Assembly: GCA_963969595.1 (NCBI GenBank)
Contig: OZ018418.1
Coordinates: 8,313,001 to 8,377,000 of the forward strand
Length of the DNA: 64,000 bases
Direction: 5' to 3'
Origin: Neckera pumila
Taxonomy: Eukaryota > Streptophyta > Bryopsida > Hypnales > Neckeraceae
Below, piece after piece: positions 5,463-57,769 of this stretch. Below the pieces are notes generated by a model, which did no database searches, was not told where the DNA came from, and saw only the letters and a list, made by a program, of their open reading frames with translations. The translations under genes and the position numbers were made by a program. How positions within the stretch are numbered: the first letter of the stretch is position 1; the number at the start of each line of letters is the position of its first letter.

Positions 5463-5489
5463 AGGCCTTATTTGTTAAATTGAGACAAT
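5463..5489 (+). repeat. Left terminal inverted repeat of element A
   Basis: 27 bp beginning AAGGCC, preceded by TTAA. It pairs with 28546-28572 with a single T/C mismatch. It shares the spaced pattern AA...C.TATT..TTA..TTG.GA with the element B terminus. Confidence 0.9.
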
Positions 5490-5994
5490 ATGGTTATTTT
5501 GAGACTTTGAAAATGAGGGTGTGAAGTTGTTTTGAAGTATTAGTTAATGAATCCAAAGATAAACAAAGCCTTTACTTACAACAATGATAGAAATTACTGA
5601 AGACAGCAAGGCAAATGACATAAAACAAGACAGTGGAGTTATAGGAAAATATTGAAACATCAAAAAACATTTTGCTGCTCAAGTACTTGGGAAATAGAAA
5701 AGCAAGTGCATTTACATTCAATAAGCTTCTTTAAGATGAATTTCATTTGAATTGAATAAATTATAAACCTTTGAGTTTGTAAAGTCTATGTGATTGTGTA
5801 GAAACAAAGAGGCCCACTATACATAAAGCTTTCTACTTTCCTGAATCATTTTCTTCGTATAATATTTACCATGCTATTAATAGTAAACAAAGGTCAGAAG
5901 CGTAGAGCTCCAAAAATTTTCTTCATTCACTAAGCATCACTATAGGCTGTACAATTGCCCTTTGTTGCCTCCAACGCTTTCTATTTATGGAGTG

Positions 5995-6309
5995 CTATGA
6001 AGATGTCCTTGCGTCAAGAAGGATAGTGCATCGCTCCTCCAACTTCCACACTTTGAAATCCAGTGTCTTTCCGCTTTGGTTTGCGGGTGCTTCGTTGAAC
6101 CTCGGAGGTAGAATGTGCTTTAGAACCCTAGGGAGGTAGCCTTGGCAGCAACATATTGATATTGTTTTTGTACGGACTCCCCAATCCAGTTGATTTAGAG
6201 TCCAAAGACCGTCGATGATCTCAAAGATACCTCTGCCTGTGGACACTGTCTGTGGATGGCAACCGTCGCGCCTCAACAGACAGTGAAGGACAAGGTCGAC
6301 TATCCTCAA
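5995..6309 (-). CDS. Last exon of element A ParB/HAD-like gene
   Basis: About 104 residues ending in DARTSS. It aligns weakly with the last exon of the element B gene (56306-56644) around [IM]LPPR[FL] and the following charged residues. No known domain is seen. It lies about 530 bp inside the left TIR of element A, which mirrors the element B gene's position near the right TIR. Confidence 0.45.
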   Translation of the reverse strand: MRIVDLVLHCLLRRDGCHPQTVSTGRGIFEIIDGLWTLNQLDWGVRTKTISICCCQGYLPRVLKHILPPRFNEAPANQSGKTLDFKVWKLEERCTILLDARTSS

Positions 6310-6554
6310 GTTGAGGCAAACGAGGTGCAGTCAAAGACAAGTACTACGCACTCCTGGAATCGACGTCATGCACAGCCACTGACTCCACACCGCGCACGTG
6401 GACAGAAGGTCGGACTGGCGGCGGAGGAGCATCAGCATCCTCAACGCAAGGATGTGCCTGACCTTTGCTAATGTGGAGTTCGAGTCTCCGATTCGTCACA
6501 GCTTCCGCACGAGGAGTGGGCAAGAAAAAGCACTCTCAAGTTGAGGATGCCCGT

Positions 6555-6790
6555 TTCAGAGGGGACAAGGAGCAGACGGGGGTCCGCACCTGTCCTCGAC
6601 TTGGGGGACTGTCCATGACGCCATCCTCCACTCCTCCCTTGGAGAAGTTAATGGTTGCTAATGCATCGTCCTCTACGGTATGCATCATGTAAAGTCCTGA
6701 CAAAAGAGATGGTCTAGTGCTCCCTCCTACAGATGCGGATCCAGATGATAGGGACAGCGACTTTTCCGATCCGGAAATGAGGCTACTAGA
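6555..6790 (-). CDS. Ser/Pro-rich exon of element A ParB/HAD-like gene
   Basis: The stretch LYMMHTVEDDALATINFSKG, followed by a VEDGVMDSPPS segment, matches IMYSATTAQSTMDFSMKDVDD and GIVDSPPS of the element B gene at about 55960-56060. The order and spacing match the HAD-to-tail part of the B gene. No catalytic motif is visible. It is probably a flexible tail. Confidence 0.55.
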
Positions 6791-7225
6791 CAGCTTTTGT
6801 CGTTTGGTTGACAGCAGTACAGAAAGAGCTCCCACCTGCATGAAGTATAGATATCTAGATGTTTCATACACTATCCTCGACACGAGGATCCACAAGAGAC
6901 GCATGCCCAAATGTGAATGGCACGAATTGACACAAAGTATACACAGATTTTAAATGGTTAACTTCCAATACAAAATATATATTTACAAATGTATGTACTA
7001 CAGTCACCATACAATGCAGAGAATGTCATCAAGTCCTAATGCGGGAGACTATAGCGAGACCTAGGTCCTATGTCCGCTCGGCTCTATTACTACATTTATT
7101 CCTGGAAGTTTGAAATGGGACCTGAGGTTCCGGGCGGACTCTCTCATCCCTCTCAAAATGTGTTGCACAACGTAGTCCAAAGTGCCCGCAAGATTTGATC
7201 CAATCTGACTTCTGTGCACGTAGTC

Positions 7226-7912
7226 TCATAGATGACTCTGCCCGCAATCCGATTGAAGACGTCGGAGCCATGGCAGAAGGGAACCGAAAAGGAAGTCGTC
7301 CTCCCGTTGTACGTGACTCCACATATGGGCGAAAATTGCATTCCACCTCTCATTGCAGAGACTCTTCTCTGGGGAGTCGTCGATGAGAATGGTGTTGTCC
7401 GCGGTGAAGGACGCGCCCTCACACGCGAGCATGAACACCCGCTCGGACAAGACTTTCAAAAAGACGGTTTTCTGTTTACGCAACAAGAGCTTCCCTTTAC
7501 GGGTCTCTATCTTCCTGTAGTGTTCTTGATCTAGGACTTTGAAGGAGGCTTTGTTTCCCTTGAAGAGGAAGTTCGTGATCAATTTCATTGTGGAATGCAT
7601 CATTGAGGACTACACTACAATTTTATCCGCAACGCGAGACACCTCACGCAGGAATTCCCGCAGATTCTGTTTGGCAAATATCGCCTTCGGTCCAACAATG
7701 GTGGGATTTGTGTGGCTTAATACATTGTCTTTGACCCGATTCTGCATTAGATTTTTAGCATACGATTTGGGCTTGCACTGGTAGAGAATGCCATTAAGGT
7801 CAAAGACAATGTTCAGCCACCTCCCTCGGTGTTTAGGCACTATTGGCAACACATTCTTTGGCACGATCTCTACATGGCCTTGCAATTCTACATGATCAAA
7901 GAAAAACGACAA
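7226..7912 (-). CDS. FCP1/NIF-like HAD domain exon, element A
   Basis: One reading frame interrupted by a single TAG. HAD motif I reads VFDLNGILY (7777-7806), where active FCP1/SCP phosphatases have DxDxT, so the second Asp is Asn. Motif II falls at VV*SSM (about 7600-7612), with TAG where the element B copy has Trp (IWSSM). The late acidic motif is intact as ILIDDSPEKS (7366-7398), followed by LLPWLRRL. Plant FCP1-like proteins with D[LIV]NGLL in place of DLDET are known to me, so the loss may be ancestral rather than decay. The exon starts after a likely acceptor (..ATGTAG, minus strand). Expected role: protein-binding or phosphatase-like domain; catalysis is doubtful. Confidence 0.7.
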
Positions 7913-8359
7913 AGAAATAGAGTTACTTGTTTGAATGCGGAATCAGGTGAGACAGACAACGGATAGGAGCATTGAATTCCACTAATTGAGTGCTTGCTCC
8001 CATGAGGAAGTGGTTTCATTGCCATTAGATGGAGCAAGCTTTTAGTGGTTTTGTGCTGAGCAAAAAAACATGGACAAGAGAATACAATTAGATTGCCATG
8101 TATGGGATTTAAATACGGTAGGTTTTATTTACAAAGATTATAGAATACATCCAAAAACTAAAGCCACCATATGGGGCTGCAAAAATAGGCCAATCCTATG
8201 CTACACTAGTTTACACGGACCACAATCACAGAAGTGTCCATAAGCACCAAACAATCAAGGAGAGCCCTCCTGTCAAGCAAAATAAATACAGTATAAGTGA
8301 TAATCTCTAGAAGAAGAGAGACGCAGACAAGCAAGAGAACACACTCATGGTCTCATACA

Positions 8360-9918
8360 AAGTCATACGGATTAGAAAAGTATACCTCAATTGACTCGTG
8401 AGGCTGGGAACCCACGACCCCTACCGTTGCCACCTCCTGCAGAATTTTGTCGCCCTCCTCAGAAACATTGTCTCGTAGGGACTCTTCGTCGTCTCCGTAA
8501 TCTACCTGCTTGTCATCCAGGGAAGCGACAAGAAACGCCTCTTCGACCTTGTGCCTGAAGGTCAAAGGCAGAGCAACCTCCGGAGTCGCTGCTGCTGTCT
8601 TTGCAGTAGATGCATGGGGCACCAGAGGCAGAACTGGTTGAGAACCAACAGCCTCAGCATTGTTCTTGACTTGAGGATAACTCCTGGACCCCTGCCTAGA
8701 TGCCACAGACAAAGCGACGGGCTGAGTCTCCGGCACAAATTCATTGGCCGCTGTAGAAGAGGGAATCTGGACATTTATCATCTGGGGTGCAGGGATCTGA
8801 AGGACTTCGGCCTTGTTGACAGGAGTTATTGGTGGACCTAAATCCTGAACTTGAGAATCTGCCAGACTGGTAACGAGATTGCAAACGTCTTACGTCACGC
8901 CAGTTGCAGAGGTCGAGGGAATTGCAGGATGCTCCAATTGAATCTGGCTAGGGAGAGGCGCAGACTGGGATAGGGACATGCGGGACTAGCTTTCAAAAAA
9001 ATCTTAGATCTGTCGCTCAAGCCTGCTGATCTTCTCCTATGCCTCTTGGCTCACGCGGAGAGCTTTTGCAATCCGCTGGGCTTTCTTGTCAAGAATATCT
9101 TGCTGTGCTTGCTTCCGGACCCATTTTCTATCCTTGCGCTCCATCTTTGCGAGCCAGTATGCGGTCTGTACTGTACCTGCAAATGGGGGTGGAGCAACCG
9201 GATCAACCGGCAATGTGGCAGGAGCAACGTCGCTGACCTAGGATACAAAGGGGGCACCAGTTTGGTCTCTAGGGGGTTGCTTGTCATCACTGCCAGTTTC
9301 ACTATTGTAATCCAACTCCACCAGGAGTGTCTCATTGTCGACATCACTGAGAATGCAAACGACGTGCTCCACAACTGACTTCATCTTTTGACGCTTTGGT
9401 CTTTCGTCCTTCTCATCGGCGGAGGTAGAGACTGTCGATTTGCAACAACATTTTCAACGGGTTTTCCGAGGTGTATCGTGTATTTTTTGCGATTTAGCCT
9501 GCCGCAACTGGCCTTGGCGTGAGAGCTCTTTGTACTCCGGATCTAACTTGATATCCTCTCCAGGTATGTTATCATTATGTGTAGTTTCACAACAAACAAC
9601 CCCTCGTCTGTCCATTTCACCAGACATTGTGCTGGACTCGTCAATGTTAGGGAGTCCTTCTCCCGAGTCCCTATGTTCACGAACTGGGGTAACTTCATTT
9701 TCGGAAGAAGGTAGAGAGCGTAGTTCATTCTCCTTAGGTGGTGACACAGATGTCATTACCGGCGCTTCTATATACAGAGGCCTCAAGTATTTCAATGAGC
9801 ATGGGGAGTTGGCGTGCAAGAAGTCATTCATATCTGGACGATCAGCCAAAAGCGCAAAGTCTTGATGCCTCCTAGTAAGATCCTTGTGGACCAGTCTGTA
9901 GAAGTACGCACCAAACAT
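8360..9918 (-). CDS. Charged coiled-coil and linker segment, element A ParB/HAD-like gene
   Basis: The start MFGAYFYRLVHKDLTRRHQD aligns with MLSLDHFFVGESKKKEDFLN at 52845 in element B. It is followed by an acidic low-complexity stretch, then a Pro-rich patch (VDPVAPPPFA) and a Lys/Arg/Gln-rich helix (WLAKMERKDRKWVRKQAQQD), and ends before a GTATGAG donor near 8353. Six in-frame stops are present (TGA, three TAG, two TAA), most at positions where a Gln codon is plausible. It is likely a nuclear, basic, coiled-coil linker between the helical domain and the HAD domain. Confidence 0.6.
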
Positions 9919-9949
9919 TTGGAGAACATATGAGACAGAAACAAATGTC

Positions 9950-10110
9950 AGGGAATGACATCCTCAAATCGAAGATGAAGGATCCAGAAGCTAGTCCAAT
10001 CACGCAAGAGAATTAATAATTAGATGACAATAACAAATGAACTAAAGAAAACTTCAACTGTACTCTAATCCAACACAAGTTATCTTCAAGCCAAAGGAAA
10101 TATACCTTGG
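9950..10110. repeat. Weak palindromes in an intron of the element A ParB/HAD-like gene
   Basis: Two degenerate copies (CATCCTCAAATCGAAGATGA near 9960; TTATCTTCAAGCCAAAGGAA near 10080) lie between the donor after AAAGTTCACAATCGCAGCCAAG (minus strand) and the next coding segment. They resemble the array unit at 13680-14335. Confidence 0.45.
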
Positions 10111-11430
10111 CTGCGATTGTGAACTTCATGCCCGCTTCAATGCCTAGGACGTTTTCTTCAATCACCGCGAAGCACTGGAAGATCTCAAAGTACAATTCCA
10201 TTCTTAGCTCAGTAGCATACAACCTCCATTTTGCCTCGTTGTTAAACTTTGAGTCAAGGTAGTATAGAACATCTGCAGCTGTGTAAACCGACTTCCATTT
10301 GTTGAGCACAAAATCGGCGTGGATGTTGCCTGTTTTGAAGAAGAACAGCATCCGCACATTGGTGTCCACTCTAAGACGGTTGAACACGTTGTCGAGCCGC
10401 TCCACCTGACACGGATAATACCAGGACTTGTATGTTTTGTACTCTGGCATATATTCCACGGCGAATTTCCTCGCCACATTGTAGTCCTCTTCGTCTCCAA
10501 GGATCCAAAGCCAAATACTAGCTTCAGTTGCAATTGGCTCAAGCTGGGTGACGAGAAAGTCCCAAAATGACTGAAGACTTGGCACACCTTCTACAATGGC
10601 GAGCCTATCCAACTTTTGGACGTCAAGGACAGCGAGGTTCAGAGGCCTACTCTGATACTTGTAGTGCACACTTGTTACAAGTGCCCTCTTCTTGGCATCC
10701 AACCCTTTGAACTCCACACCGCCGGTACTCTTTTTAGGTTGGCACTTCAACTTCATGAACCTTTGGAACAGAGGCACTTCGTCAGAAAACTTCTCTCCGA
10801 GGTCTTTGGCGCGCTTCAGCTTCGCGTCGTTTGTGAGCCACTTACTGAAAAACAAGGGCTTCGGATGGGAGATAAGAAAATCCCATGTCAAGGAAGTAAA
10901 ATGATGCCTTTTCTTCCAAGACCTCCACATATCAAGGTTGGTGTCATTGAGGGCATCTCTCAGCTTTAGACTGAGCTTGACGGCCATCAACTCCTTGTGT
11001 ACAATTCTTTTCTTCTTCTGACGCTCTATCCAATTGAGTGTAGTCTGGTTGTCCAACACTAGATATTTCATTTTTCCCACGGACACCTTCGGATAGCTCA
11101 GTGCCCACTCTGAAGTCTCATTCAAAAGGTGCTGTGCAAACACCTTCAAATCATTGTCCATGAAATGCCCTAAATGCTTAAGGAATTCTCTCTTCAAGCA
11201 AAGCGACATGTGACCAAAGTCCTTCAAGTCCCGGAAGAGTTTCTCAGAGTATGGTTCAATGTTCTTGCTGCAGGAATACTTGGTAAGGAAGTCCTTCCAC
11301 AAATTCCAAACATTGTCCTAGAGCATGATGATTTTGATCTCGCTCTTCAAATCACCTGACAATTTGATATTCTACCCCTCCTTCTCAGGATTAATGTTTT
11401 GGAATCGACTGACCACCGCATGAGAAAACC
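10105..11430 (-). CDS. Helical middle domain, element A ParB/HAD-like gene
   Basis: About 430 open residues from 11302, extendable upstream to about 11430 through two TAG codons (..EIKIIML*DNVWNLWKDF). It aligns along its length with 51330-52664 of element B: EIK..x.QDVYDLW, then [SE][IV]WLWI, LFF.K.G, and [TD][EM]ELRMELY near the end. No known domain is recognised. The conserved Trp and hydrophobic spacing suggest a folded all-helical module. This is the longest intact stretch of the gene in element A. It ends at a GT donor (CCAAG|GTATATTT, minus strand). Confidence 0.7.
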
Positions 11431-11479
11431 TCTGGAACAAGCAAAGCGGGGATTAGTCCTTGTCAATAGACATTATTAA

Positions 11480-11674
11480 CATAACTTCGACTCAAGGGTA
11501 ACCAATACACTAAACAGTACGAGCGGGATAACGTACTACTAAAACATGAAATAATGCCATTTAGAACAAGGACTACGAGCTTCAAGTCGAAGATAACGGA
11601 ACATTGGATAAGACTTAAATAAAAATGGAGGCCTTTGCAGAAGAAGGACCATTACCTTTGAATCGAAGGTAATG
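11480..11674. repeat. Intronic palindromes of element A
   Basis: A clean copy, ATTACCTTTG-AAT-CGAAGGTAAT, lies at 11651-11673. A second degenerate copy lies at 11480-11502 (ATAACTTCG-ACT-CAAGGGTAA) and a half-site near 11581. All are between the ParB-like exon and the helical exon, so they sit in an intron. Confidence 0.7.
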
Positions 11675-11679
11675 GAAAG

Positions 11680-13338
11680 GCCAAGATACTTATTGCATAT
11701 TGTCCCTTACTAAGAACAGAGGCATTCCTTCGCAAAACAGGATCTTCAGGAACAATCGTGGGTTGCAGGTAGTTAATCCATATATTCCTACAACTAACAA
11801 TCTGATTACCCCAAGTCGGTTGTGCATGATCAAAGTGATTGGTCGAGTTGTAAAATTGCGATATTGAAAACAGCTTCGCGGGATTGAGGGTCCATACAAT
11901 GTAGGCTTCCCAATTTTGCAACTCGACTCAATGTTCTGGACCGCACTTCTTTGTCTAGAGGTCCTTCAAGGCCTGGACGCTGTGTTGCCCATTTATAATC
12001 ATGAAGTTGTTGTCCTTGATCTCTTCCCACTTCTCGAGCTTCTATGACAGCAACCTACCCCGGGAGTCCGTTGGGGTCAAACAAAGTCTCTGGCGCTCTC
12101 TGATATGGCCAATTGCTTTCAGGAGGTTCTTTGCCCCATCTAATATATTTTGTTGGATGCCGCAAATGACATATTCATCTCTAGCCTGTATGCATTTGTT
12201 GATGGACACGAGGATTGGTTCCTGTCCAAACAAGTAGCAGGGCCCATTTTCAGCCCAGAAGGTCCTCTGCTTGAGAGCAAACGTGTCAGTTGCATCAAGA
12301 GGGGTTTTAGAAGCCGTTGTGGTTGCGACATTCATTAATGCAAAACCAAAACTTCCAATATGAGCTTTCTTTTGGCGCTTAGGTTTGGAAGCCACTACCT
12401 CTCTTGACTGGGTTGCTTGGCGCCTTTGAGTCTCAGACGAGACTTGACTTGGTCCGATTGCTCCACTTCCAAACACAAGAGCCGTGGATCCACTTAGTAC
12501 TTCCTGAGGAGGTCCCCTCTGCTTCCTTTTTTTCTGCTATCCTACTCTGGGTTGGGGTTTCACAACCTTTCAAGTATGGCGTTCCAGTGATTGCCAGATT
12601 TTCATCAACCTTTGGCAGTTAACTTGTGCGGTGCCATCAACCCATGCACTATAAGAAACCCGCGTTTTAGGTGACGTTAGCATAACCTAAGCAAACGCAT
12701 TTTTGTGGACGCAAAATAAAACAACTTGTGTTTTTATGTCAATAACAATGTTCAATGTAACATTTGGATGTTACATTAAACATTGTTATTGACATAAAAA
12801 CACAAGTTGTTTTATTTTGCGTCCACAAAAATGCGTCTGCTTAGGTTATGCTAACGTCACCTAAAACGCGGGTTTCTTATAGTGATGGAAGGTACTTGGT
12901 AGCTGTGAAGGTATTGATGAGGTGTTGAAACTGAGACACTTCAAGAGAAAATTGAAGTTTTTGCATGTCGAACCTTCCCCGTGGATCGTTGACGTCCATT
13001 ACAATTGAGTGAGAGTGATTACCGTCGCTACCATTCTCCAGAGCTTCTTATAGGACAATCACGACATAGTTATTGCGGACGGCTTCGATAACTGACACCT
13101 TCTCTTGAGGATGCAACGGCAGAAAGTTAGGTTGATCCTTAATGCGATAGCAAAGGTGCACATAGTCTTGAAATTGATCTAAGCCGAACGTCCATGCGGC
13201 AACATGCTGCTTGAACTGCCAGAGCTTTCTGTAGGAGTTTGGTATTTCTCTTATAAATGGGACGTCACCAAAGGGGTTCTTGAAAGGCTCAATACACGGT
13301 AGGGTAGTAGAGTAGTCATAATCGTCGTTGCCCTCCAT
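11680..13338 (-). CDS. ParB/sulfiredoxin-like domain exon, element A (split by a MITE)
   Basis: Starts MEGNDDYDYS at 13338. The core reads NNFMIINGQHSVQALKDL (about 11965-12022), matching GKFWMVNGQHCLEASKRM of element B, followed in both by WE[AC][YF][IF]VW and NHFD...PTW. ParB/Srx proteins have a G-x-H-R-x-x-A pattern at the same place, so the fold call rests on that motif plus the preceding alternation; the usual Arg is Ser here. The exon is interrupted by the MITE 12647-12884. Removing the MITE plus one 3-bp duplication (241 bp) restores a single frame from 13338 to 11680. Six in-frame stops remain (TAA, two TGA, three TAG). Likely role: DNA or nucleotide binding. Confidence 0.6.
12647..12884. 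mobile_element. CACTA-type hairpin MITE, 238 bp
   Basis: Ends are CACTATAAGAAACCCGCGTT and its reverse complement. Apart from a short loop around 12765 the two halves are near-perfect complements (GCAAACGC against GCGTCTGC is one visible difference). It is flanked by the 3-bp duplication ATG (12644-12646, 12885-12887). CACTATAAGAAA closely matches the CACTA-superfamily terminus CACTACAAGAAA, and 3-bp duplications are characteristic of that superfamily. It inserted into a coding exon, which makes it younger than the gene. The near-perfect hairpin implies recent insertion or small-RNA potential. Confidence 0.9.
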
Positions 13339-13679
13339 CTTGGTTTACCTTCCAGGGCTGCATTAGATGTTATGTTGGTCAAATTTGTCCTAGACACATA
13401 GCCGGAGCTCATGTATCCTCAACATGAGGATAAATCATTATCTCTACAAACTGTTAAGGTAGTAAACTATTTTGATAGGGTGGATTCTAATTCAGAGTGC
13501 AGGACGAAGATTCTCTGAGAATGAAGTCTACGGACTTCTAGATTAGATTCAAGTCGCAGATAAGTTCAAATATTTTGCAACCAACAATAAGGTACCAATA
13601 TTACTCTACAGTTCAACAAAAGGGTAATTACCATAGAGCAGAATGAAATGACCTAGCTAAGGCGATTATTTTCTAGAGC

Positions 13680-14335
13680 TTCAGATAACATCTTCGAGAC
13701 AAAGATAATTCATCTCTAATCCTAGCTAATGCGCTTAATTTTTGGAGCTTTAGAAATTACCGTCGAGTCGAAGGTAATCCGACTCTAGTCCTAGCAAACT
13801 CGCTCAATTGCTAAAGCTTCAGATATCATCTTTGAGACGAAGTTAATTTAACTCTAGTCCTAGCTGATGTGCTTAATTTTGGGAGCTTTAGAAATTACCT
13901 TTGAGTAAAAGGTAATCTATTTCTAGTCCTAGTTGATGTGATTAATTTCTGGAGCTTCAAAACTTACCTTCGAGACGAAGGTAATCTATCTCTAATTCTA
14001 GCTGATGTGCTCAATTCTGGAGCTTTAGAAATTACCTTCGAGTTGAAGCTAATCTATCTCTAGTCCTAGCTAACTCGCTGACTTGCTAAAGCTTCAAATA
14101 TCATCTTCAAGTCGAAGATAATTTAAGTCTAGACCAAGCTAATGCGTTGAATATCTGGAGCTGTAGAAATTACCTTTGAGTCGAAGCTAATCCGACTGTA
14201 GTCCTAGGTCATATTCTTTTTTTGTGGAGCTTCATAAATTTTGGGTAGATACCCTAATGATGCTTTGCTTATATTTCATGAAATTAAGGTGGAAACCCTA
14301 AGGACATTAGCTTCGAGTCAAAGCTTATCTAACTG
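13680..14335. repeat. Palindrome array upstream of the element A ParB/HAD-like gene
   Basis: About nine tandem units of roughly 66-75 bp. Each carries an imperfect palindrome of the form ATTACCTTCG-N3-CGAAGGTAAT, for example near 13757, 13832, 13900, 13963, 14031, 14097 and 14169, followed by a spacer of the type CTAGTCCTAGCTgATGtGCT. The array starts about 340 bp upstream of the ATG at 13338 and lies in the presumed 5' intron. The centre is always three bases between CG and CG. Confidence 0.85.
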
Positions 14336-14999
14336 TAGTAGCGGCTAATGCTCTTCCTTTCTATAGTTTAATAAATTTTGGGTAGAAATCCTAATCTAGC
14401 TTTCAGTAAATTTAATAAAACTGTGATGGAAATCCTAATGCAATTAAATAGTTTGGTTAATTTTCTTACCTCAGACAGTATCTTTGAGCAGGTTCCGCTG
14501 TGTCCAAGTGTAAACCCTAAACTGCAGATTACACATGAAAATAAGGGACAACATTGTAAGCTATATGTAAATCAAAACAACTTGATTTCAACCCTAAATC
14601 TTGCAAACCATTCACTACAAACCAAATATGCATAGTCATAGTAGATTTGAATTCAAGCTTTGAACCCTAAACCCTAATCCCAGCTTCTATCTATACTTTC
14701 AGTCCCGGCTTCCAATCCCAGCTTGAAATTGCAATTCCACGCAGCAAAGAAAGAAAGGAAAATTCCAATTTCCAATCTTAGCTTCCAATACCAGCTTTAA
14801 ATTGCAAAATCAAATAGCAGAGCAAGCAAATTGGCAAAAATAAGAAAACTACAAGCAAAGCAAAGCAAGGAAGGAAGCAAAACAAACTAGAATTCAATGT
14901 AGTGTACACTTGCTAAACTCAAAATTCTTGCAAAACACATGTCCACAATATTACAATCTCGCAGGATCTCAACTTCTGCCCATAGCTTCAACACCTCTT
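14336..14999. other. Intergenic/5' intron sequence with telomere-type motifs
   Basis: AT-rich, no gene seen. It contains AACCCTAAACCCTAATCCC near 14665 and several copies of CCAATCCCAGCTTCCA-like short repeats (14690-14800). It is probably the remaining first intron of the minus-strand gene. Confidence 0.4.
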
Positions 15000-15560
15000 G
15001 TACACACCACTTCAACGATGAAGCCTAAACCTGAAATGCACTCACCGCTCTAGCTCCACAGGAACCCTAAACCTCAAATGCTCTAAAAAATCCGCAATTC
15101 GCATTTGTGAGCGGTGGCTTTTGAGAGACCTAAAACCCCAACAACATTGGTTTCGGTCGTCCTCCCGTTGTGCAACAATGTCAACTTCAAATGTGCTCAA
15201 AGAATGCGGACACTAAACCCTCAAATGCGCTCACAAGTACACTCTCAAATGCACTCACCAATCCGCTCCTAAAATTGCTCACTGCTTTGCTTCCACAAGA
15301 AGAAGCACCACGGCGAGGAGAGTGCTCCGCTCCCACAAGAAGAAGCACTGCAACAAGGAGAGAGAGACGACACGACGGAACCACGGAGCGATAAGAGTGT
15401 AAGGATTTAGGTGGCGCAGCAAGGGGAAAGAGACGACCAGCCATATCCAATCCAAGCCGCAAAAGCCAGGTTCGGCAACTCGAACCTGTTACCGAACCTA
15501 TGGCCCAAACCTCCGGATCCGAATTAGAGGGTGCCAAACCCCAGATTCGGCAACAAAGTC
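15000..15560 (-). promoter_or_regulatory. Probable promoter/first exon of element A ParB/HAD-like gene
   Basis: A comparatively GC-rich 500-bp island in AT-rich surroundings, with AACCCTAAACC telo-box-like motifs (about 15063) and ATGGCCCAAA (about 15499), the complement of a plant site II TGGGCC motif. It sits about 1.7-2.2 kb upstream of the ATG, with the palindrome array between, matching the layout upstream of the element B gene (48180-48690). The assignment is by position and composition only. Confidence 0.4.
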
Positions 15561-15583
15561 CTTTTTCAAGTGCTCCCGCCCAC

Positions 15584-46900: not shown

Positions 46901-46904
46901 AAAT

Positions 46905-47665: not shown

Positions 47666-47749
47666 GTTTGTGGGTAGTTCTAGATTCTCTACTCTAAATT
47701 GAATTTTGAAGTCCTTTTTCTTACTCATTTTTCAATATTTGTTGAAAAA

Positions 47750-48175
47750 ATCAAATCAAAGGATGTAGATTATTTATTACACCATTGCAACCGTAGGATT
47801 AGAATTTTTCAATGCCATAATTAAATTCTTTACAATTTAGTATTTTAAATCATTATTTACTACTATGTACTTTCAATTTTTTTCCTATGTGTTTTACAAT
47901 TCCAAATGAAGTGAAAATTTTTGGGCATGTAGCCAACTTATCAAGGAAAAAAAATCCAAACAAGCACCATCATTTGGGACATTTTTTCATCGATAAGTGA
48001 GTTTGTGAAGTGCTATTGTCCTTTTTTTTGCAGGGTCAGAAAAATGGTCTTAATGAATTTTGCTGACACATGTAATTGTAAGTTTTTTTTCAGAAATTCG
48101 GTGTTTGTACTAAAAATGACACTTTTTGAGCGTTCTTGGTGAAAACATAGTCATGGAACTTTAGGTGTTAAAGTG
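47750..48175 (-). repeat. Inverted copy of the 440-bp central repeat
   Basis: Reverse complement of 41050-41580: GGATGTAGATTATTTATTACA (47762) against TGTAATAAATAATCTACATCC (41551); TTCCAAATGAAGTGAAAATTTT against AAAATTTTCACTTCATTTGGAA; CATAGTCATGGAACTTTAGG against CCTAAAGTTCCATGACTATG. The 40.6-41.6 and 47.75-48.18 kb blocks are thus inverted arms around the element centre. Confidence 0.85.
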
Positions 48176-48179
48176 ACAT

Positions 48180-48260
48180 AAGGCCATGGTGAATGGGCCA
48201 TGGTCAAAGGGTCACAATCAAAGGGCCATGGTCAAAGGGCCACGGTTTAGGGTTTGCAAT
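48180..48260 (+). promoter_or_regulatory. GGGCCATGG repeats with telo-box, promoter of element B ParB/HAD-like gene
   Basis: Five short tandem copies of a 16-20-bp unit containing GGGCCATGGTCAAA or a variant, then GTTTAGGGTTTG. TGGGCC (site II) plus AAACCCTA (telo-box) is a known pairing in plant promoters of growth-related genes. A GC-rich stretch (48245-48690), likely the first exon, follows. Transcriptional use is inferred. Confidence 0.45.
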
Positions 48261-49072
48261 GGGCGGCGCAGTGTAGGGTTCGGAGCTCTTGTCTGGAAAC
48301 CCTGGCCGTGATCCGCCATTCCTGGCAACTCTTGTGCGACTTCATTCCTTCCGTGATTTTGTGCTTTTGTGAGATTTTGCGTGCTTTTGCATCAGAGGTT
48401 CCTTCATTTTTGGTGCAACCTGCGCTGATCTTGATTTCGGGGGTTCCGGATTTGTGCGGTGTCCTTGTCAACCTCCTGTTGGGCGACCTAGGCGCGCTTC
48501 GTGGTGCGTCGTCGAGGCGTGGAGGTGGAGCTGGGCAACTTGGGTGGCTGTTTGTGTTGCCTCCTCGTGTAGGCGGGAGCTCTTGCTAGGCGACCTGGGC
48601 GTGCGTCATTGTGTATGCAACTGGGGGTTTTGGTGGAGCTTGGCTGGTACGTGCTGGATGAGAGTTCTTGTTTGCTTTCATTCTGTAGAGGCGACTTTGT
48701 GCACTGAATGTAATTGCTTGTGCTTGTGGACGTGCTGCTTCTGTAAGGTTCCCACATACTTGCATTGTGGTGCATTGGTTTCTGTTGCAGCTTAGAATTG
48801 TGATTTAGCTGGGCGACCTAGTTGTGGAAATGGTTTTCTCAAAATTGGATTTTTGAGGTCTGGGCGCTCAATTGGATTCAACTGTCTTTTGGTTTTGGTT
48901 CAGGTTTTGTAGTTGAATTCTTGCATTTTGTTTTTGGTTTCTTGAGTTTTTGCTGACTGCATTAGCCTTGTCACTAGGATTTGCATTTGTTGCTTGCATT
49001 AGGTATATGTTGAATTGATTTCCAGCTCTCGTATTTAGTTTTTGCAGTTTTCTATGTCCATTGCTACGTAGA
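48261..49072 (+). other. Probable 5' untranslated exon and intron start
   Basis: The GC-rich 48261-48690 part has open frames on both strands (for example 48254-48589), typical of high GC rather than a conserved protein. A T-rich, intron-like stretch runs from 48830 to 49072. Confidence 0.35.
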
Positions 49073-49732
49073 AGTTAAACTTCCGTCGAGTTAAATGAAG
49101 GAACATCTGTAATAATCCCAAAAATATAGGTTTCAGTCGACGCATATTTAACTTGACGGAAGTTTAACTCGATAGATGACATAATTAAGGTAGCAAGTTA
49201 CAGAAATTTAACTCGAGACGAGATAAGAGGCTTCAAAGAATGGAAGTTTCATCTCGAACGGGAGTAGCACACCAACACCGAAGATGTACAAACATAGAAA
49301 AAACATTGAAGTTGCGGAGAGAACCAACAGCTTTAACTTGGCTCAAGTTGAAAAACACATCCCAGACCCTACAATCAAGAAGGTACAGCAGCTAAAGCTA
49401 ATTTGACAAGAGACAAGAATGCTAAATATTAACCAAAGACATAGAAGGCATAGGAATACACAAACATCAACAACCGATTAAGAAGGTTTAACTCGTGTCA
49501 AGTTAAAAGGCCCTCTGGTATGAATCGTGAAAAGAGAACCAAAGACGTCAGCCCCGTGACGAGTTCACCAAGTTAGAGAACTCCCGATGGTTTGGAATAG
49601 ACGATCTTTACTCGGATAATAGAGGGCGTCATAAATAAGCGCTCAGTATAATAGGATTCACCAAGAATGATAAGTAGGACAATAAAGTGATGTCAGCGGT
49701 AATCTCCTGGTTTTAACTCGGTTCGAGTTAAC
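49073..49732. repeat. Palindrome cluster upstream of element B ParB/HAD-like gene
   Basis: Six copies of TTAACTCG-N3-CGAGTTAA variants at about 49073, 49146, 49206, 49331, 49487 and 49711. The last, TTAACTCG-GTT-CGAGTTAA, is perfect. The cluster ends 28 bp before the start codon, just before the splice acceptor GACTTGCAG, so it is intronic. Confidence 0.9.
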
Positions 49733-49759
49733 ATGTGCTCTTGTCCTGGACTTGCAGAA

Positions 49760-51195
49760 ATGGAAGCGCAGACCAAGGGACTAGAGGTTTTTTTGAAGCG
49801 CTTTGAGATTCCAGACAATAACAGAGACGAGTACGGCAAGACCGACATGCTTGGGGAATGTTGTAAGTGGAAGGACCCTGAAGAATTCGACCACTAGACA
49901 CTTGCTTTTGTTCCTATGAACTCGAACCTGTCCTTCAGGATGAAGTACAAAAAGGTCAAGGACAACCTCCCGGTCACACTTACGGAGGTTGTAAGAGAGG
50001 TCACCACAAGGCCAAACGGTTTAATATTCATCTGCTGCAGGACGCAAGACCCAGATCAGACTGAGGAGTACATCTTCTCGTACGTGCTAAACAGCAGGCA
50101 GATCACATTCAGTGTCTCCAACTACTATAGGACACTAGAGGGACGAGCTACCAGGGGCTGCAGAAGAAGATTGAGCAGCATATGAAGGAGAAGAGGTGGA
50201 AAGCAAAGGATGGGAGCCCTTTGACATCCGTCACTCTAGCTTCAAGAGTTAATGCCCTGATCAAGGGGTTTGACCTCATGAAGATGGAGTTGAAGAACAA
50301 GTCCCAGAGGATGCAACCCATATCTTTGACTAGAGATTATAGCAGTCAAGGAGGAAGCCAAGGATCCTTCATCGTGGTGACCTTAGAGACTGGTAGGAGC
50401 CACACTCGCATGAAGCAGACGGATTGCTTCGGCAGAGAAGAACCATCAAAGACCCCACCACCTGCACCGAAAGGGAAAGGAAAGAAGACCACTTCAAAGA
50501 ACCTCCTGGTGCCTAAGAGTAGCATGGCCTCAGAGCTTGTAGACATCCCGCAAGACCTCGGCGGAATTGTGAAGGAGATCGACTACGAAGAAGCATGCAA
50601 ACACTTTGAGGAGTACTGGTCGGCATGCACAAAGCGGTACAGACCAAAGATTGGGTACAAGTACGAGATTTCAATTGATGAGCTGGAGACGCCACCACAA
50701 ACACTCAACATCCAAGTGTTGGAAGAACAAGGTGTTCAGAAGACACTGAATTACCTCATCAGTATGCCTGACCCTGACAAGAAGATGACGCTCTGTGCAT
50801 ATCCGCAGCTTGTCACGGTGAAGCCTGAAAAGTTTGAGGAAGTTGAGGCCGGGAAGTTCTGGATGGTAAACGGACAGCACTGCTTAGAGGCGTCGAAGAG
50901 AATGCAGAAGATGATTAAAGTGCCCAACGAGAAGAAGGCTAAGTTTCTGAAATGGGAGTGCTTTTTTGTGTGGCACAAAGACGACAGCCTAATCAGGAAA
51001 GTGTCGGCCTACTACAATCGTGTGAACCACTTCGACAACTTCATGCCAACCTGATCCACGAACATCCTGGCATCCAGATTTGTCTGCACAAGTATGGGGT
51101 CCCCACCACCTCCAAGAGAGCCCACAGCTTTGGGGAAGGCCGTAACACTGGCAAAGAAGTCGAAGGCTGACGGCAACAACCAGAGGCTCTTTGCA
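49760..51195 (+). CDS. ParB/sulfiredoxin-like domain exon, element B
   Basis: Begins MEAQTKGLEVFLKRFEIPDN. The ParB-like part runs IGYKYEISIDELETPPQTLN, then EQGVQKTLNYLISMPDPDKK, then GKFWMVNGQHCLEASKRMQK (about 50850-50905), and is followed by WECFFVWHKDD and YYNRVNHFDNFMPT*. The order 'helix, short strand, G-Q-H..A-K' fits the ParB/Srx fold; Cys replaces the usual Arg. Stops: TAG at 49895-49897 and TGA where element A has Trp (PTW). A frame change occurs near 50140. The exon ends TTTGCA|GTAAAT. Confidence 0.6.
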
Positions 51196-51329
51196 GTAAA
51201 TCCGCTAGCTTTAACTCGTCTCGAGTTAATTTGTAATTCCATTGAGGTCAGTTCTTTCCATATAATTTAACTCGTCTTGAGTTAAGACCCGTCGCTGACA
51301 GGATGTGTATGCTGGACCTGGATGTGCAG
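51196..51329 (+). repeat. Intron with two palindromes
   Basis: A 134-bp intron (GTAAAT..GTGCAG) containing TTAACTCG-TCT-CGAGTTAA at 51211 (perfect) and a second copy, TTAACTCG-TCT-TGAGTTAA, at 51268. The palindromes make up nearly a third of the intron. Confidence 0.8.
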
Positions 51330-52664
51330 GAATTCAAGAACACAATCAAGCTGAGGTTTGCCATGATTGACATTAAGAAGAATCAGGGGTATCTAAGCAA
51401 GAAGAATCAAAGGGAGCTAGACAATGAGATCAAGCTAATTACAGCTTAGCAGGACGTCTACGACCTATGGATGGAGGTCATCTTGAGCCAGGCTCAGGGA
51501 GAGCTTATCGATCCAGATTCGCTCATGAAGTTCAAGTATTGCAAAGGCTGGGACTCGGCAAAGGATGGTGTGATGACTCGTGAATTCAAGTGGATTGGGA
51601 ACTGCACACAAGACAATTTGAGGAGGCTTGCGCTGCATATCCTTCACAGGTCTTCTCGGCGGACTGCAGGACACCCAAAAGTTGTCATAAGGGCACCAAA
51701 GTCTGTCCTCCCTGACTGCTACTCCGCAAAGGATTGGCTTGAGAGGGGAAAGAAGAAGGCTGCTATAAAGATACAGTTACATCACCTGGATCCGAAGCTA
51801 AAGCTCTTTGACAACAAGGGAAATCCAAGGAAGAAGCCATGGAAGGCCTTCAAGCGAGATTACAGTGTGAACAAGGCCACAAAGAACACATTGCTCATTG
51901 GTCCAGGGGAACACTTCTTCTCTTAGGTGAAGATGCCGTCGAATAAGAAGAAGACACTGGAGGAATTGTCAGTTATAGCCAAGGAGTTCTTCACGGTCTT
52001 CTTGGCGAGCAAGGGCAAATTCGTGAAGCCTGAAGCTAAGGCGTTCTTCAAGCCCTATGACATGGATGATGACGAGCTCGGAGAGTGGGACGTAGCTGTA
52101 TGGGATGAGTCCGCGCAATCAAGAATAAAGCTGGCGGTCATCGACTTTAGGAATATCCTTAGAGTTATAAATAAGGGCGCCAATGCTTCATACTACAACA
52201 ATTTTATGACCCTCTTGGAGGAGGATGTCTTGGTGGAGCTCATGGACCCGGAGGTCTGGCTGTGGATTGCTCGTGAGAAGGATGTTGAGGCCGACCTGCA
52301 GAGTTTCATCAGGACATCTGATTTTGGTAAGTCGTACTCAGTTGGCTACACGGATTATCTGCCACCCACATTCAAGCACATTGGGGACGTCCCCGAGAGG
52401 AGCTCCACAGTGAAAGATCCGGTCCAACTGTTGTTTCTGGTGAAGAATGGGGCAGCCGTGAAGACCCGCTAGATTCCCAAAACATTTGCTGTAGCACCAA
52501 AATGGCATTACAATATGAAGCGGCAGAATGTGGAGGTGGAGTATCGGATACATGATATGGAGCTCCGCATGGAGCTTTATTTGAGCGTCCTTCAACTGTT
52601 CGTGTTGCCGAGAGACGTGGTGGTCTCCTATTTTGCAAGAGGAAAGATGATATCTACTGCTTGG
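51330..52664 (+). CDS. Helical middle domain, element B
   Basis: Reads EFKNTIKLRFAMIDIKKNQG, then QDVYDLWMEV, PEVWLWIAREKDVEADLQSF, LLFLVKNGAAV and IHDMELRMELYLSVLQLFVL before the donor TTGG|GTGAGT. It aligns with 11430-10105 of element A. Three TAG codons (ITA*QDV; FFS*VKM at 51924-51926; KTR*IPK near 52470) are the only stops. No known domain. Conserved aromatic positions indicate a folded module. Confidence 0.65.
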
Positions 52665-52844
52665 GTGAGTTCAACTTTACTTTGGAATGCTGATAGTTTA
52701 GATGTCTGAATCCCTGTTCTTTAACTCAGGTCAAGTTGACTCCCTATTCGCACGTCCTCTGGATCTCTAGCGGCCATGTATTCTTCTTTAACTTGGTTTG
52801 AGTTGATCATGCTTTCCTAACTGCTCTTTGGGCTTGTCATGCAG
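52665..52844 (+). repeat. Intron with two palindromes
   Basis: A 180-bp intron (GTGAGT..CATGCAG) with TTAACTCA-GGT-CAAGTTGA at 52721 and TTAACTTG-GTT-TGAGTTGA at 52788, both decayed but symmetrical. Confidence 0.75.
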
Positions 52845-54056
52845 ATGCTGTCGCTAGATCACTTCTTTGTTGGTGAGAGCAAGAAGAAGGAAGACTTCCT
52901 AAACTTGTGCTTGGAGTCGGAGAGTATGGACAAGGCTAATTTCCTTGAGTCGGCGTACTTTGTGGAAGAGCACGAAGATGATGGAAGTAAGAGGAAAGGT
53001 GTGTCCACCTCAGAAGCTAAGGGGCCGTCTGTATCCGGGAGGGGGAAGGAACCAGCTGATGACGACTGCATCGAGATTCCTGGGGGTCTAAGAGTTTTGT
53101 TCCTCTGAACATTGGTGCGAACACTGATGATGTGTTGGAGTTCACACAGAGAGCAGTTGGCGAGTCGACGCATGTGCCTGAGGGTAGTGACATGCAGGGA
53201 TCATCTGGCTCGTCTACTAGACAAAATATCACTCCGAAATCCCGTCCGCGTGTGCCACCGAAGAGGAAGCCTGACTTACCAGCGCCGGCTGCTCCATTCT
53301 CACTGGAGTGGACAATGGACTTCATACAGAAGAACAATGAGAATGAGGCTAGGGCTCGTAAGGAGGACCGTGAGGCGCAAAGGAAGGAAAACAAGCAGGC
53401 GCGTCAGGAGAACAAGAACATGATCAAGGAGATCATGCAGAGTATTCCCGAAATTGTATCAAAGGTGGCAGCGACGACCGTGAATACAATGTTCAGTGGG
53501 AGACCATTGATGTCCCTGGATCCGGCTGTAGGAACTCTTCAACTGGCGATTGCCAATCATCCCCAGGGGTCAGTTGATAGTGCCAAGCAATCTTGCACAG
53601 GGTCGGAGATCCTCACTGGGGTGCCGTCGACATCCCAGAACTTGCTGACCCAGACGTCCTTGAGTTCTAATCCAAACCAAATCGAATCCGACCGATGTCC
53701 CGACAATATGGAGGTGGATACAGTTTGGCAGGATGCGGCAACTGATGATGTTGCCCCGGCGTCTGGCAATGCTCCACAAGTTGCGACCGAGGGATCCCAG
53801 GACAAGGATCCAGTTCTGCAGGTCGAGGAGCAAGATTGCGCTACCCCGGAGACTGGCAGAGATCAGCTCCCTGAAGTTGTTGTTGAGCAAGGTGTGGAGG
53901 AAGTGGAGAATGTTGCATCGTAGGATGAGGAGGATGTGGAGGATGTTGCCGCAGACACCAGCACCGACCCCGTCCCGCCAGATGTCGCCGAATGTGGATT
54001 AGAGGCCGAGCAGCCACAGGGGTCTATGACTGAGATTCCTCCAGGTTCTTCCCTGT
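52845..54056 (+). CDS. Basic coiled-coil linker exon, element B
   Basis: Starts MLSLDHFFVGESKKKEDFLN. A frame change follows near 53110. It then has a Pro/Lys-rich patch (PRVPPKRKPDLPAPAAPF), SLEWTMDFIQKNNENEARAR and a long Arg/Lys/Glu/Gln helix, and an acidic tail ending near PPG at a likely donor. One TAG lies at 53921-53923. Composition suggests a nuclear protein with a coiled coil. The same order is seen in element A (9918-8360). Confidence 0.6.
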
Positions 54057-54254
54057 GACTCTCTTAGCCTCCTCTTCAACTCGATTTGAGTTGAATTCCC
54101 TTTCCACGTTCGTAGGCATTTCAGATTGCATAAGTAGGCAAATAGGCTAAACTTTCCTAGTGCGTTGTATATAATGTATTATTCCATCTCCCAACAAGAA
54201 ACTGTAATATATAATTTTTTCTCACACATCATTTCTGTGCTTGATATTTCGCAG
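54057..54254 (+). repeat. Intron with one palindrome
   Basis: Contains TCAACTCG-ATT-TGAGTTGA at 54077, then AT-rich sequence and the acceptor ATTTCGCAG at 54254. Confidence 0.65.
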
Positions 54255-54565
54255 CCACAGGCTCATTGATTTCTGAAATTGTTGCTCTCCCTATGGCATC
54301 CAATTCCCAGAATACTGCTGTGGATCCGAAGATTCCCCTTGCATGTATTCTGGACGTGTCTGTTGCTATTAGTGGTGATCCGGTGCTGGAGATACCTCCG
54401 TTATTTCTTGAGGAAAAGAATGTCGAGGAGCATGCTATTGATGGTGGAGATGTCAAGTTATTGGAGGACATTCCAGATGATCCTCCTTTTCAGTCAGAAA
54501 TGCCCCGGTCGCATACTTGAGTCGAGACAACTACAGCATCTCTAGTTGCCATGGTCCAGGACGCG
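54255..54565 (+). CDS. Acidic linker exon, element B
   Basis: Reads SLISEIVALPMASNSQNTAV through an acidic segment (EEKNVEEHAIDGGDVKLLED) to a GT donor at 54566, with a TGA at 54518-54520. No domain. It bridges linker and HAD exons. Confidence 0.45.
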
Positions 54566-54751
54566 GTATGTATATAGTGATGTGTATGTTTGAGTGTCCT
54601 TGCTGTGGTCTTCTACCTGGCACTCTTGTTTTTACTTTCTCCCCTTCGTGGATGTGGTCCACTGTCTTGAAAGCACGGGTGGAGTACCCATTTTGTAGTC
54701 GGAAGTGCATCCTTTTAATTTGCCCTTTTTTTCTCTTTTCGTCATGAGTAG

Positions 54752-55742
54752 GGTAGCAGTGAGAGATCCCATGAGGCGGAATGCCACAATCTTCCTCCAT
54801 TCACTTCCAGGATGACAGAGAAATGACTCAACGTCATCCTGGATCTGAATGGACTTCTATGCATGTGTGACGTTGTGAGGTACCACCTGAAGGAAGGGAG
54901 GTTATGCAATCTTGGTGAGGTAGTCCCTGATATAGAGCACAAGACCTTGGAAATTAAGAGGGTCACTTGTCGGCCAAATGTTAGGAGCTGTTTGCGAGAA
55001 TTATCCTCCATTACATATGTCCACATCTGGAGCTCCATGAAGAGATCCTATGCCGAACTCGTTTGCAAGTTTCTATTTCACGACATAGAATCCCCGTGTT
55101 ATATTCTTGGCCAAGAGCAATGCAATGTTTTGAAATGCAGAGGGAGGAACGGAAGGCTAGAGGACTACAAGATAAAAAGGGTTGGACAAAGTCCTCTACA
55201 TGAAGCCATTAGAGAAACTGCACAATTTGATTGATTCCATGTTCACCAAAGAGACCACAATTGTTGTGGACGTCAAGCCGGAGATGCACTTTGTGAACGA
55301 CCCTATAAGTGTGGTGCTCTTGGATCTGTGGTCATTTGAGGGTTTGGAAGCGACAGGTGGATTCCTCATAAATGAGCTTCTCCCATGGTTTAAGAATCTG
55401 CACGTAGAGAGGCCATGGGAGTTGAATTCTTTTCATAGAGACAATGCTCTTGGAGGCGTCCACCTTATGAATGAACTCGACATGGTCAAGTACAATGACT
55501 TTGCCAGGGCATTGGAGGTCTCCAATTTTCTTTACGATGAATGGAGTGTGAGCAACATTGGGCCTTATGTTTCTCCCCAAATGTCCAATCCTTCTTCTGG
55601 CAAGGAACTTAAGCTACGAGACGTTTATTTCCGTCTTTGTCCGCCTCCTTGCACCATGTCCAATCCGTTGCTGCGCAAGGAGCGTAATATACAAGACATT
55701 TGGGTCTATCATAGAGCGCCTCCCCGCAAGAGGAGTTTGTAG
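54752..55742 (+). CDS. FCP1/NIF-like HAD domain exon, element B
   Basis: TGA replaces Trp just before motif I (EK*LNVILDLNGLLCMC; element A has RWLNIVFDLNGILYQC). Motif I is DLNGLL (54841-54858), so the second Asp is Asn as in copy A. Motif II is IWSSM (55025-55039). The late acidic motif is altered to IVVDVKPE (about 55262-55285), losing the second Asp kept in copy A. A frameshift separates the two halves near 55200. FLINELLPWFKNL matches the A copy. Likely not catalytic. Confidence 0.7.
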
Positions 55743-55844
55743 GCCCTATAGGATTTTGACCCTAAATTATTGCAATGCGAGTGCATCTTGTGTCAACATG
55801 AATCCATTATAGCAGTTCATTACAGTGGAGACCTCTGTTTTGTG

Positions 55845-56644
55845 CTCAGGATTTGGATGTTGCTGAGGCACCCACAAATGGTTGTGGAGACAAGTGCCTG
55901 GCCTCAACTGATTCACTTGCTGACTGTGGAGAGTTGAATATATTGCAATATGGGGTTCGTCATATCATGTATTCAGCGACCACTGCACAGTCAACCATGG
56001 ATTTTTCAATGAAGGACGTAGATGATGGTATAGTTGATAGTCCTCCCAGTGGAAGAATGCCTCTTGTACTAGTTCACTCTCCATCTCCTCTCAAGTCACG
56101 TCTTCAATCAAAGTCTCCACAGGATCGCTCTCAAATGAATTTTGAAACGCAAAGAAAGCTCTACAATGATGAAGTGGATGGTGTGGCTGTTGTAGAGGTA
56201 CATCATCAACAATTTTTGTCTTTGCAAACATATTTGTTTTTAAGTAATGCTTTGCAGACGTAAGTTGTAGATTTTGAATCTGTTTTAGAATTTCTATACT
56301 TGCAGGTGGAGGACATGGTGCCTATATCTTTTACCATCTTTGGTAATAATTTTAAGGATGTAGAGCCTGTAGTCCATAAAGACGGGACTACCATATCTAA
56401 TGGCATGTTGCCTCCTAGACTTCATCCGTCTTCATTGGGCGTTGCCAAACGACAATACAAAACACATGATGGATTGCTTTCGCTTCGTTGTCGTCGTCGT
56501 CCTTGGGACGCTTGGGAAGAGAGGTCCTTGAAGAAACAACGACGGGGAAATGCTCTCCAGAGGTCCAGTGGTAGTACTGGATATAGTCGAGGACCAGAGA
56601 TAATGAAGGCAATGGAGATGTTGAAGAATAGGTCACACTCCTAG
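55845..56644 (+). CDS. Tail exons of element B ParB/HAD-like gene
   Basis: The first exon follows the acceptor TGTGCTCAG and carries DVDDGIVDSPPSG and SPSPLKSRLQSKSP, ending at a GT donor near 56198. The last exon starts after CTTGCAG at 56306 and contains FTIFGNNFKDVEPVVHKDGT and a basic segment, stopping at 56642-56644. The tail is Ser/Pro-rich and basic. A degenerate copy of the last exon follows at 56758-56945. Confidence 0.55.
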
Positions 56645-56757
56645 TGTGTAGATTACGACTTTCCCTACAAATATAGTGAGCCTGTATTATTGTGCTCTCT
56701 TAGGAATGGTATTATTTGTAGTATCCTTGCTTATGTCTAGGCCAAAGTCCAAGTGTC

Positions 56758-56945
56758 CATTGCATTTTCCAATTACTCTGGCTTCCACGTCCATGGGTCG
56801 CTTGGGATTTGAGGTCCTTAAGAGAACAACGACGAGAGATTGCACAAATAAGATCTGGTAGTAGTAGTGGTTATAGTCAAGGGCCGGAGATATTGAAAGC
56901 AATGGAGTTGGTGAAGAGTAGGTCGTCCTCGTAGTACATAGATGA
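56758..56945 (+). pseudogene. Degenerate duplicate of the last exon
   Basis: Repeats 56500-56660: CGCTTGGG...GAGGTCCTTAAGAGAACAACGACGaGAGA, GGTAGTAGTAGTGG, TATAGTCaAGGgCCgGAGATA, AAGCAATGGAG. The frame is not maintained. It is a short tandem duplication just downstream of the stop codon. Confidence 0.75.
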
Positions 56946-57038
56946 AGACTATAGAGGACATTTTATTCTCTTCATTAGAGTGGTATAAAATTTTGGTTAG
57001 TCACTCCAATATTAATGAGTGATTTAAAGACTATGTTT

Positions 57039-57410
57039 GAGACATCACCACTATTACAAAGTTTATGGCTTGTATTTGAAGAATGAAGTAAATAGTAATC
57101 TTTCAGCGACAACTAATTCCACAGCAAATAGAGATCGAGAAATTGCAGCAAGAGAGACTTGTAGAAATAAGGTATTCCAAACTCCTTGGCAAGTACCTTT
57201 ATAGATTGCAGTTTATACACTGCGGTATATAAGAGTACTTTTCAAGGAGAGTGGATTACCTTGTTTCTACAAGTCTCTCTCTTGCTGCGATTTCTCGCTC
57301 CTTATTCATTGTGGAATTAGTTGTCGCTGAAAGATTACTATTTACTTCATTCTTCAAACATTGAAGTTGACTCTTCATTAGCAATCGGCTTGTAATGGTG
57401 GTGATGTCTC
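57039..57410. repeat. Foldback repeat near the right end of element B
   Basis: GAGACATCACCACTATTACA at 57039 mirrors TGTAATGGTGGTGATGTCTC at 57391-57410. TGAAGAATGAAGTAAATAGTAATCTTTCAGCGACAACTAATTCCACA-type sequence mirrors 57310-57360, and GCAAGAGAGACTTGTAGAAA mirrors 57265-57290. The loop is around 57190-57240. It may be a nested foldback element. Confidence 0.85.
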
Positions 57411-57744
57411 CAACACATTCTCACTCCAAAGACAATGTACTTTACTATTAGGATTGGAACAGCTTTAACATTCATTTACTTGTGGGAAGTCACATTTCAT
57501 AGTGATTGTACAATTATATTTGAAATGCATGTACATTCTTCAATTCATTTCGATAAATTGTAATGTCATTTGTAAATACTACATGGTGTTGGAAAATTGT
57601 GCTTTGTGTGTCATTGCATTGCTTATTTTGCATTTAAATATGTAGCTTCTTTCTGATTGCAACGCTTTCAGGCAACTATAAATAGAGAATTCTTTGAATT
57701 TCAAACTTTAGAGTAGATTCCAAGACTCCCATTTCCTTGGAAAA

Positions 57745-57769
57745 CTCCCAAACTTATGAATATGATGTT
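57745..57769 (-). repeat. Right terminal inverted repeat of element B
   Basis: Ends ..CTTATGAATATGATGTT, followed by the duplicated ACAA and resumed satellite. Confidence 0.85.

Follow-up and report, generated by a model that had tools for sequence, protein, structure and literature searches.

The 64,000-nucleotide window analysed here (contig OZ018418.1, positions 8,313,001 to 8,377,000) comes from the moss Neckera pumila and lies on a 12.3-Mb contig, C11, of a 339.5-Mb genome in 18 contigs. It contains two very large elements, A and B, each bounded by terminal inverted repeats (TIRs) of 25–27 bp and by 4-bp target site duplications (TSDs), and each carrying a transposase gene and a partner gene transcribed outward from a long centre. 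Element A occupies 5462..28572 (23,111 bp from TIR to TIR), with its left TIR at 5462..5488 (+) and its right TIR at 28546..28572 (-), between TTAA duplications at 5458..5461 and 28573..28576. These duplications were confirmed, including by an empty site: around 25755–25803 lies a relative of the sequence that A interrupts, and it is continuous across TTAA. Element B occupies 35635..57769 (22,135 bp from TIR to TIR), between ACAA duplications at 35631..35634 and 57770..57773. The original prediction, made from the window's letters, had described the TIRs, the duplications, the two outward-transcribed genes and the bounds of B as we find them, and only the start of A (AAGGCC...) had to be moved, to one base before the 5463 proposed.

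Searches with proteins of a third family, C, recovered the two genes in each element, in order and pointing outward from the centre. In A, tblastn with family-C exons placed the partner gene on the minus strand at 5960..13338, with stops, as an N-domain (13338–12943), a ParB-like stretch (12455–11685), a methyltransferase-like stretch (11428–10103), a HAD/NIF-like stretch (7879–7067) and a C-terminal tail (6802–5960). The transposase gene of A, on the plus strand, is split: its N-terminal part (21293..21865) is 57% identical to family C, a retroelement-like stretch follows (21866..25855, ends approximate, with tandem repeats of 169-bp period at its start), and the rest, with the DUF7869 region, lies at 25856..28045 and has stops and frame changes. 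The transposase gene of B is on the minus strand (36458..38800; family-C match 38740–36458, ATG at about 38800), and seven stops break its frame in the matched stretch. The partner gene region of B, on the plus strand at 50131..56173, comprises ParB-like (50344–51105), methyltransferase-like (51333–52667) and HAD-like (54818–55135) stretches and a tail (55886–56173); the family-C protein search of element B detected no N-domain. Stops occur in 13 of the 14 coding stretches examined across A and B, and both elements are therefore fossils. Family C is younger, with nine copies that are 95.5–98.7% alike to one of them in long blocks; the seven with both ends known measure 19.6–20.0 kb, and some copies have a stop-free transposase frame of 953 codons. 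The possibility that A and B are copies of one family was rejected, as their longest transposase match (278 residues) is 46% identical and their palindromes differ.

The original prediction of a DUF7869 transposase with Sola-like features held up, both in the 4-bp TSD and in a triad of aspartates. Pfam assigned DUF7869 to a full-length relative of the transposase with an E value of 6.1e-45, and D422, D545 and D587 were invariant in 55 transposase proteins. The predicted structure has an RNase-H-like core, with DDE matches at middling Z values, and named relatives of the protein occur in the mosses Ceratodon purpureus and Physcomitrium patens. Support for a DDD transposase that would act at TIRs of about 25–27 bp and make 4-bp duplications thus comes from the anatomy of the elements, from conservation and from the predicted fold.

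The ends of these elements recur in the genome. The A/C-type TIR pattern gave 476 matches and the reversed pattern none, and DNA searches with each of the four element ends in the window returned at least 40–41 matches apiece. Drawing on the listed ends (40–41 matches per DNA search and the first 100 of the 476 pattern matches), we delimited at least 34 large copies, spanning 14–38 kb; the short copy C2:4753125 was excluded, and one false 8-bp pair inside a TIR was replaced by its true partner. An exact 4-bp TSD flanked 26 of the 34, and four of the other eight were off by one base, while mismatched flank pairs, serving as a control, agreed in 7 of 1122 cases. One copy matched at 3 bp and none at 5 or 6 bp. 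The TSDs were varied and AT-rich, and only one of the 26 exact ones was TTAA.

Elements of the piggyBac and Kolobok types target TTAA, and KDZ elements make 8-bp TSDs; neither the range of duplications seen here nor their length agrees with such identities. A VANDAL/Mutator-like identity, with TSDs of 7–12 bp (PMC10741241), likewise disagrees with duplications of 4 bp, and a viral nature was set aside, no viral genes having been noticed, though no dedicated search was run. Sola elements, as summarised in the same source, have a DDD transposase, 4-bp TSDs and TIRs of 11–1124 bp, and have been found in Physcomitrella; most measure 2–9 kb and some exceed 15 kb (PMC10741241). The moss elements share the DDD transposase and the 4-bp TSD, and their 25–27-bp TIRs fall within the Sola range, whereas they differ from the general description in the size of their copies and in carrying a large accessory gene. 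Membership in Sola is thus supported at the level of defining features. We read A and B as old copies of Sola-type DNA transposons that are giant, autonomous and of the cut-and-paste kind.

The two genes travel together. Among the 114 transposase loci scored (the best of 840 candidates), 79 had a divergent partner gene within 45 kb, 10 had a partner in another orientation only and 25 had none; random placement gave a divergent partner to 10.0 loci on average and 17 at most. For this comparison, the partner was represented by the best 129 of 251 ParB loci and the best 103 of 263 methyltransferase-like loci, and second fragments of loci were dropped (1 of 115, 19 of 131 and 7 of 105 rows). When gene content was assessed from the loci near the 34 TIR-bounded copies, 28 held both genes, all divergent, while four showed only the partner and two only the transposase, so that copies do not consistently carry one gene alone. 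These results support the grouping of A, B and C as one kind of two-gene TIR transposon with a divergent layout. It could be argued that the second gene and the palindromes described below are functionless passengers, given that the copies in the window are broken and that only one gene was detected in 6 of the 34. Of these six, A at least has both genes by the family-C protein search, and was scored as partner only because its transposase was not among the scored rows. Moreover, three diverged families show the same gene order, searches with the two main regions of the partner gave 27 and 62 database relatives, and the palindromic sites stand out from their flanks, all of which make the passenger explanation very improbable.

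The original prediction also claimed that no described superfamily has both genes, which does not stand as worded. Sola1-1_Ec32 of the alga Ectocarpus, as portrayed in PMC12477816, is a giant Sola1 DNA transposon of about 20 kb that pairs a transposase with a long opposite-strand gene encoding ParB-like and methyltransferase(-like) parts, and the pairing is therefore already known in algae. The literature searched yielded no land-plant report of it, and a term search of an article on giant transposons (PMC6431247) found neither Sola nor ParB named. The moss elements add a HAD/NIF domain and family-specific palindrome arrays, neither of which is mentioned for Sola1-1_Ec32 in the passages of PMC12477816 consulted, and their methyltransferase-like part seems to be without catalytic motifs.

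The ParB-like and HAD-like character foreseen for the partner was recovered in structure and profile comparisons: its predicted structure matches the ParB fold of PDB entries 7bnk and 7bm8, and a NIF domain was found in the family-C partner with an E value of 1.9e-13. We read the protein as an N-terminal beta-rich domain, a ParB/sulfiredoxin-fold domain, a methyltransferase-like region, a low-complexity stretch and a HAD/NIF domain. Another possibility, put forward for the algal proteins, is that the partner is an active N6/N4 DNA methyltransferase, guided by its ParB part and marking the element that encodes it. Sola1-1_Ec32 does resemble the moss elements in its two domains, as described, and in the opposite-strand layout (PMC12477816), and in a profile comparison with nine annotated N6/N4 DNA methyltransferases the best local match fell at the region of the S-adenosylmethionine-binding motif. 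The match was nevertheless weak, with a P of 0.023 and a probability of 2% (the controls gave 0.28 and 0.61), and in a 34-row alignment the presumed DPPY place nearly always reads D-x-R and the GSGT place resembles TGSKF. PF01555 gave 15 matches in the genome, none above the cut-off. Judging from these residues, the region is probably non-catalytic, and active methylation by the partner appears improbable.

Palindrome arrays behind both gene starts, as originally noticed, were found and counted in both elements. In A, 13688..14327, upstream of the partner gene, contains nine scored sites with a 69-bp period (consensus TTAnCTTCGAGTCGAAGnTAA), and 19566..20371, upstream of the transposase, contains 14 scored sites with a 49-bp period (consensus TTATCTTTGnGnCAAAGATAA). 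The arrays of B lie at 38887..39519, upstream of the transposase, and at 49075..49732, upstream of the partner gene, and further palindromes at 51213, 51269, 52723, 52790 and 54078 all fall between matched coding stretches of the partner. The A/C consensus is TTATCTTCGANTCGAAGATAA, the transposase-side array of A having TG/CA where C has CG, and that of B is TTTAACTCGANTCGAGTTAAA; each consensus half-site holds a CpG. With up to four mismatches, A contained 24 sites by its own motif or 26 by the C motif, and B contained 19 by the B motif. The corresponding controls were one site (A motif) and none (C and B motifs) in about 18.7 kb of the window outside the elements, and 0.05–0.3 sites on average in first-order Markov sequences. 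At the same threshold the B motif had no match in A or in C47, and the A and C motifs had none in B.

What the sites of B have in common is a 21-bp palindrome, with no likeness in the adjoining sequence, and the same holds for those of C. Information inside the sites was 1.25 bits per base in B (19 sites) and 1.22 in C (33 sites), values raised by the choice of sites with the motif itself; the 25-bp flanks are informative, and at 0.07 (B) and 0.09 (C) bits per base they are near zero, which shows that the B and C sites do not derive from repetition of a longer sequence. All nine C copies have nine sites upstream of the transposase, 5–9 upstream of the partner and 6–9 beyond the partner ATG (lower bounds in seven of the nine), some of the last falling in introns, judging by the junctions. 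Genome-wide, with up to two mismatches, there were 774 C-type and 400 B-type sites, whereas the reversed patterns matched 0 and 19 times, respectively. Proximity was assessed for the exact sites listed, 50 of the C-type and 33 of the B-type: 34 and 27 of them, respectively, lay within 5 kb of gene loci, which cover 0.84% of the genome. Of the remaining 16 C-type sites, ten belong to 255-bp short copies, five have their nearest gene locus 8–10 kb away and one is unplaced; of the remaining six B-type sites, one has a gene locus 10 kb away and five are unplaced.

The short copies form a non-autonomous 255-bp family (L102 41–295) with the same TIRs as the large copies, two palindromes and repeated ATGAGAC motifs. 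Unpaired TIR matches had been considered as stray ends, an explanation rejected once at least 40 proved to be such copies; the best 40 of 211 candidate places were 90–100% identical. In the four copies read, an exact TSD was present in three and the two palindromes in all. The retention of two sites together with the TIRs in such small copies is what one would expect if the sites act in cis, either to protect the element or to mobilise it.

These elements speak to the question of how DNA transposons of giant size withstand silencing by the host, and for plants we know of one published molecular answer, VANC. In VANDAL21, VANA21 is the transposase gene. VANC21 binds a 9-bp motif that is dense in non-coding parts of VANDAL21, with tandem motif repeats upstream of VANA21 and inside the introns of both VANB21 and VANC21; the targets of VANC6 carry different motifs (PMC5735166, in the parts concerned with motifs). 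The moss elements resemble this arrangement in having an accessory protein and putative sites that form family-specific arrays of short motifs in non-coding regions, often in tandem and also intronic. They differ in that the VANC motifs are 8–9 bp long and in one orientation, as given in that source (PMC5735166), whereas the moss sites are palindromic, 21 bp long, and contain one CpG per half-site.

We give an even chance to a Sola-type transposon whose ParB-fold partner binds the element's own palindromes and protects it from silencing. The partner would recognise the 21-bp sites, load at the arrays before both genes and within its own gene, and spread or clamp in ParB fashion; each family would have its own site and its own partner. 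Bound in this way, it might further keep both promoters and the element ends free of host silencing, a step we add because of the match to VANDAL21. The likeness to bacterial ParB–parS lies in the predicted fold and in multiple palindromic sites on the same DNA, while the moss partner differs in also encoding methyltransferase-like and HAD parts and in sitting in a eukaryotic transposon.

Alternatively, the transposase itself may bind the palindromes as operators or accessory ends, for self-repression and synapsis, leaving the partner to other work such as DNA or chromatin modification. We consider this alternative rather unlikely, since the 5–9 sites upstream of the partner and the 6–9 beyond its ATG are far from the TIRs and exceed what simple self-repression would need, and palindromes are what a protein of ParB fold would naturally read. 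The scans, moreover, list no site close to the TIRs of A and one weak site close to those of C47 (at 22100).

Several further observations weigh against protection by the partner. The palindromes of the four short copies are not clearly better conserved (0.92 and 0.98) than the rest of those copies (0.94), and their sites could equally serve transposition instead of anti-silencing. The arrays of A lie on tandem repeats, so that passive homogenisation can mimic conservation. Five of the 33 listed exact B-type sites and one of the 50 C-type sites are in no nameable element, and 35 of the 114 transposase loci, 22 of them on C11, are without a divergent partner within 45 kb. The motif of the partner's ParB domain reads NGQHS, where its bacterial counterpart is GERR.

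A bolder form of the protection hypothesis, which we offer tentatively and doubt more than we believe, is that a clamp gated by cytidine triphosphate loads at the CpG-bearing palindromes and spreads over the promoters, that a dead methyltransferase domain keeps methylation off, and that a HAD/NIF phosphatase acts on chromatin, protein and site co-evolving by family and the 255-bp derivatives using the same sites. If true, this would be an independent counterpart of VANC and, as far as we are aware, the first ParB–parS-like system known from a plant nucleus. In the moss elements a protein fold other than that of VANC sits with its own family-specific palindromes, and the mosses that serve as laboratory models would allow a direct test of the protein–site prediction. 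The algal ParB–methyltransferase transposons also gain a wider frame, in that the moss lineage seems to have kept the ParB part but given up the catalytic residues of the methyltransferase.

The combination of a ParB fold with multi-copy palindromes is the design of bacterial parS, and the pair could conceivably serve to partition or replicate the element while it is extrachromosomal, or aid its segregation to one chromosome. The distribution of the elements might be taken in favour of this: C11, which is 3.6% of the genome, holds 58 of the 114 transposase loci that were scored. These loci are a best-scoring sample that favours relatives close to the queries, and the share of C11 is a figure for that sample. 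C11 is perhaps a sex chromosome or otherwise non-recombining, and slow removal from a low-recombination chromosome is a simpler explanation of the excess. The 4-bp TSDs also indicate ordinary integration, and we regard a partition role as decidedly improbable.

Other features of the window concern the surroundings and interior of the two elements. The host sequence of A includes a retroelement-like fragment (28573–29301), and related sequence is also inserted in the transposase gene of A (25091–25803), in opposite orientation. Between the N-domain and ParB-like stretches of the partner gene of A there is a near-perfect 238-bp hairpin (12647–12884; 117-bp arms, 98%), perhaps a short palindromic insertion. 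Element B is inserted in a 177-bp satellite array, present at 34759–35634 and 57950–64000, whose unit has an inner 31-bp palindrome-like stretch, TCCGCTCATGAATCTTAACTTCATGAGCGGA. About 7 kb in the middle of B (41077–48170), perhaps a nested element, is framed by long inverted repeats whose pieces measure 56–265 bp (80–86%), and a large nested hairpin of about 390 bp lies near the right end of B, at 57028–57421.

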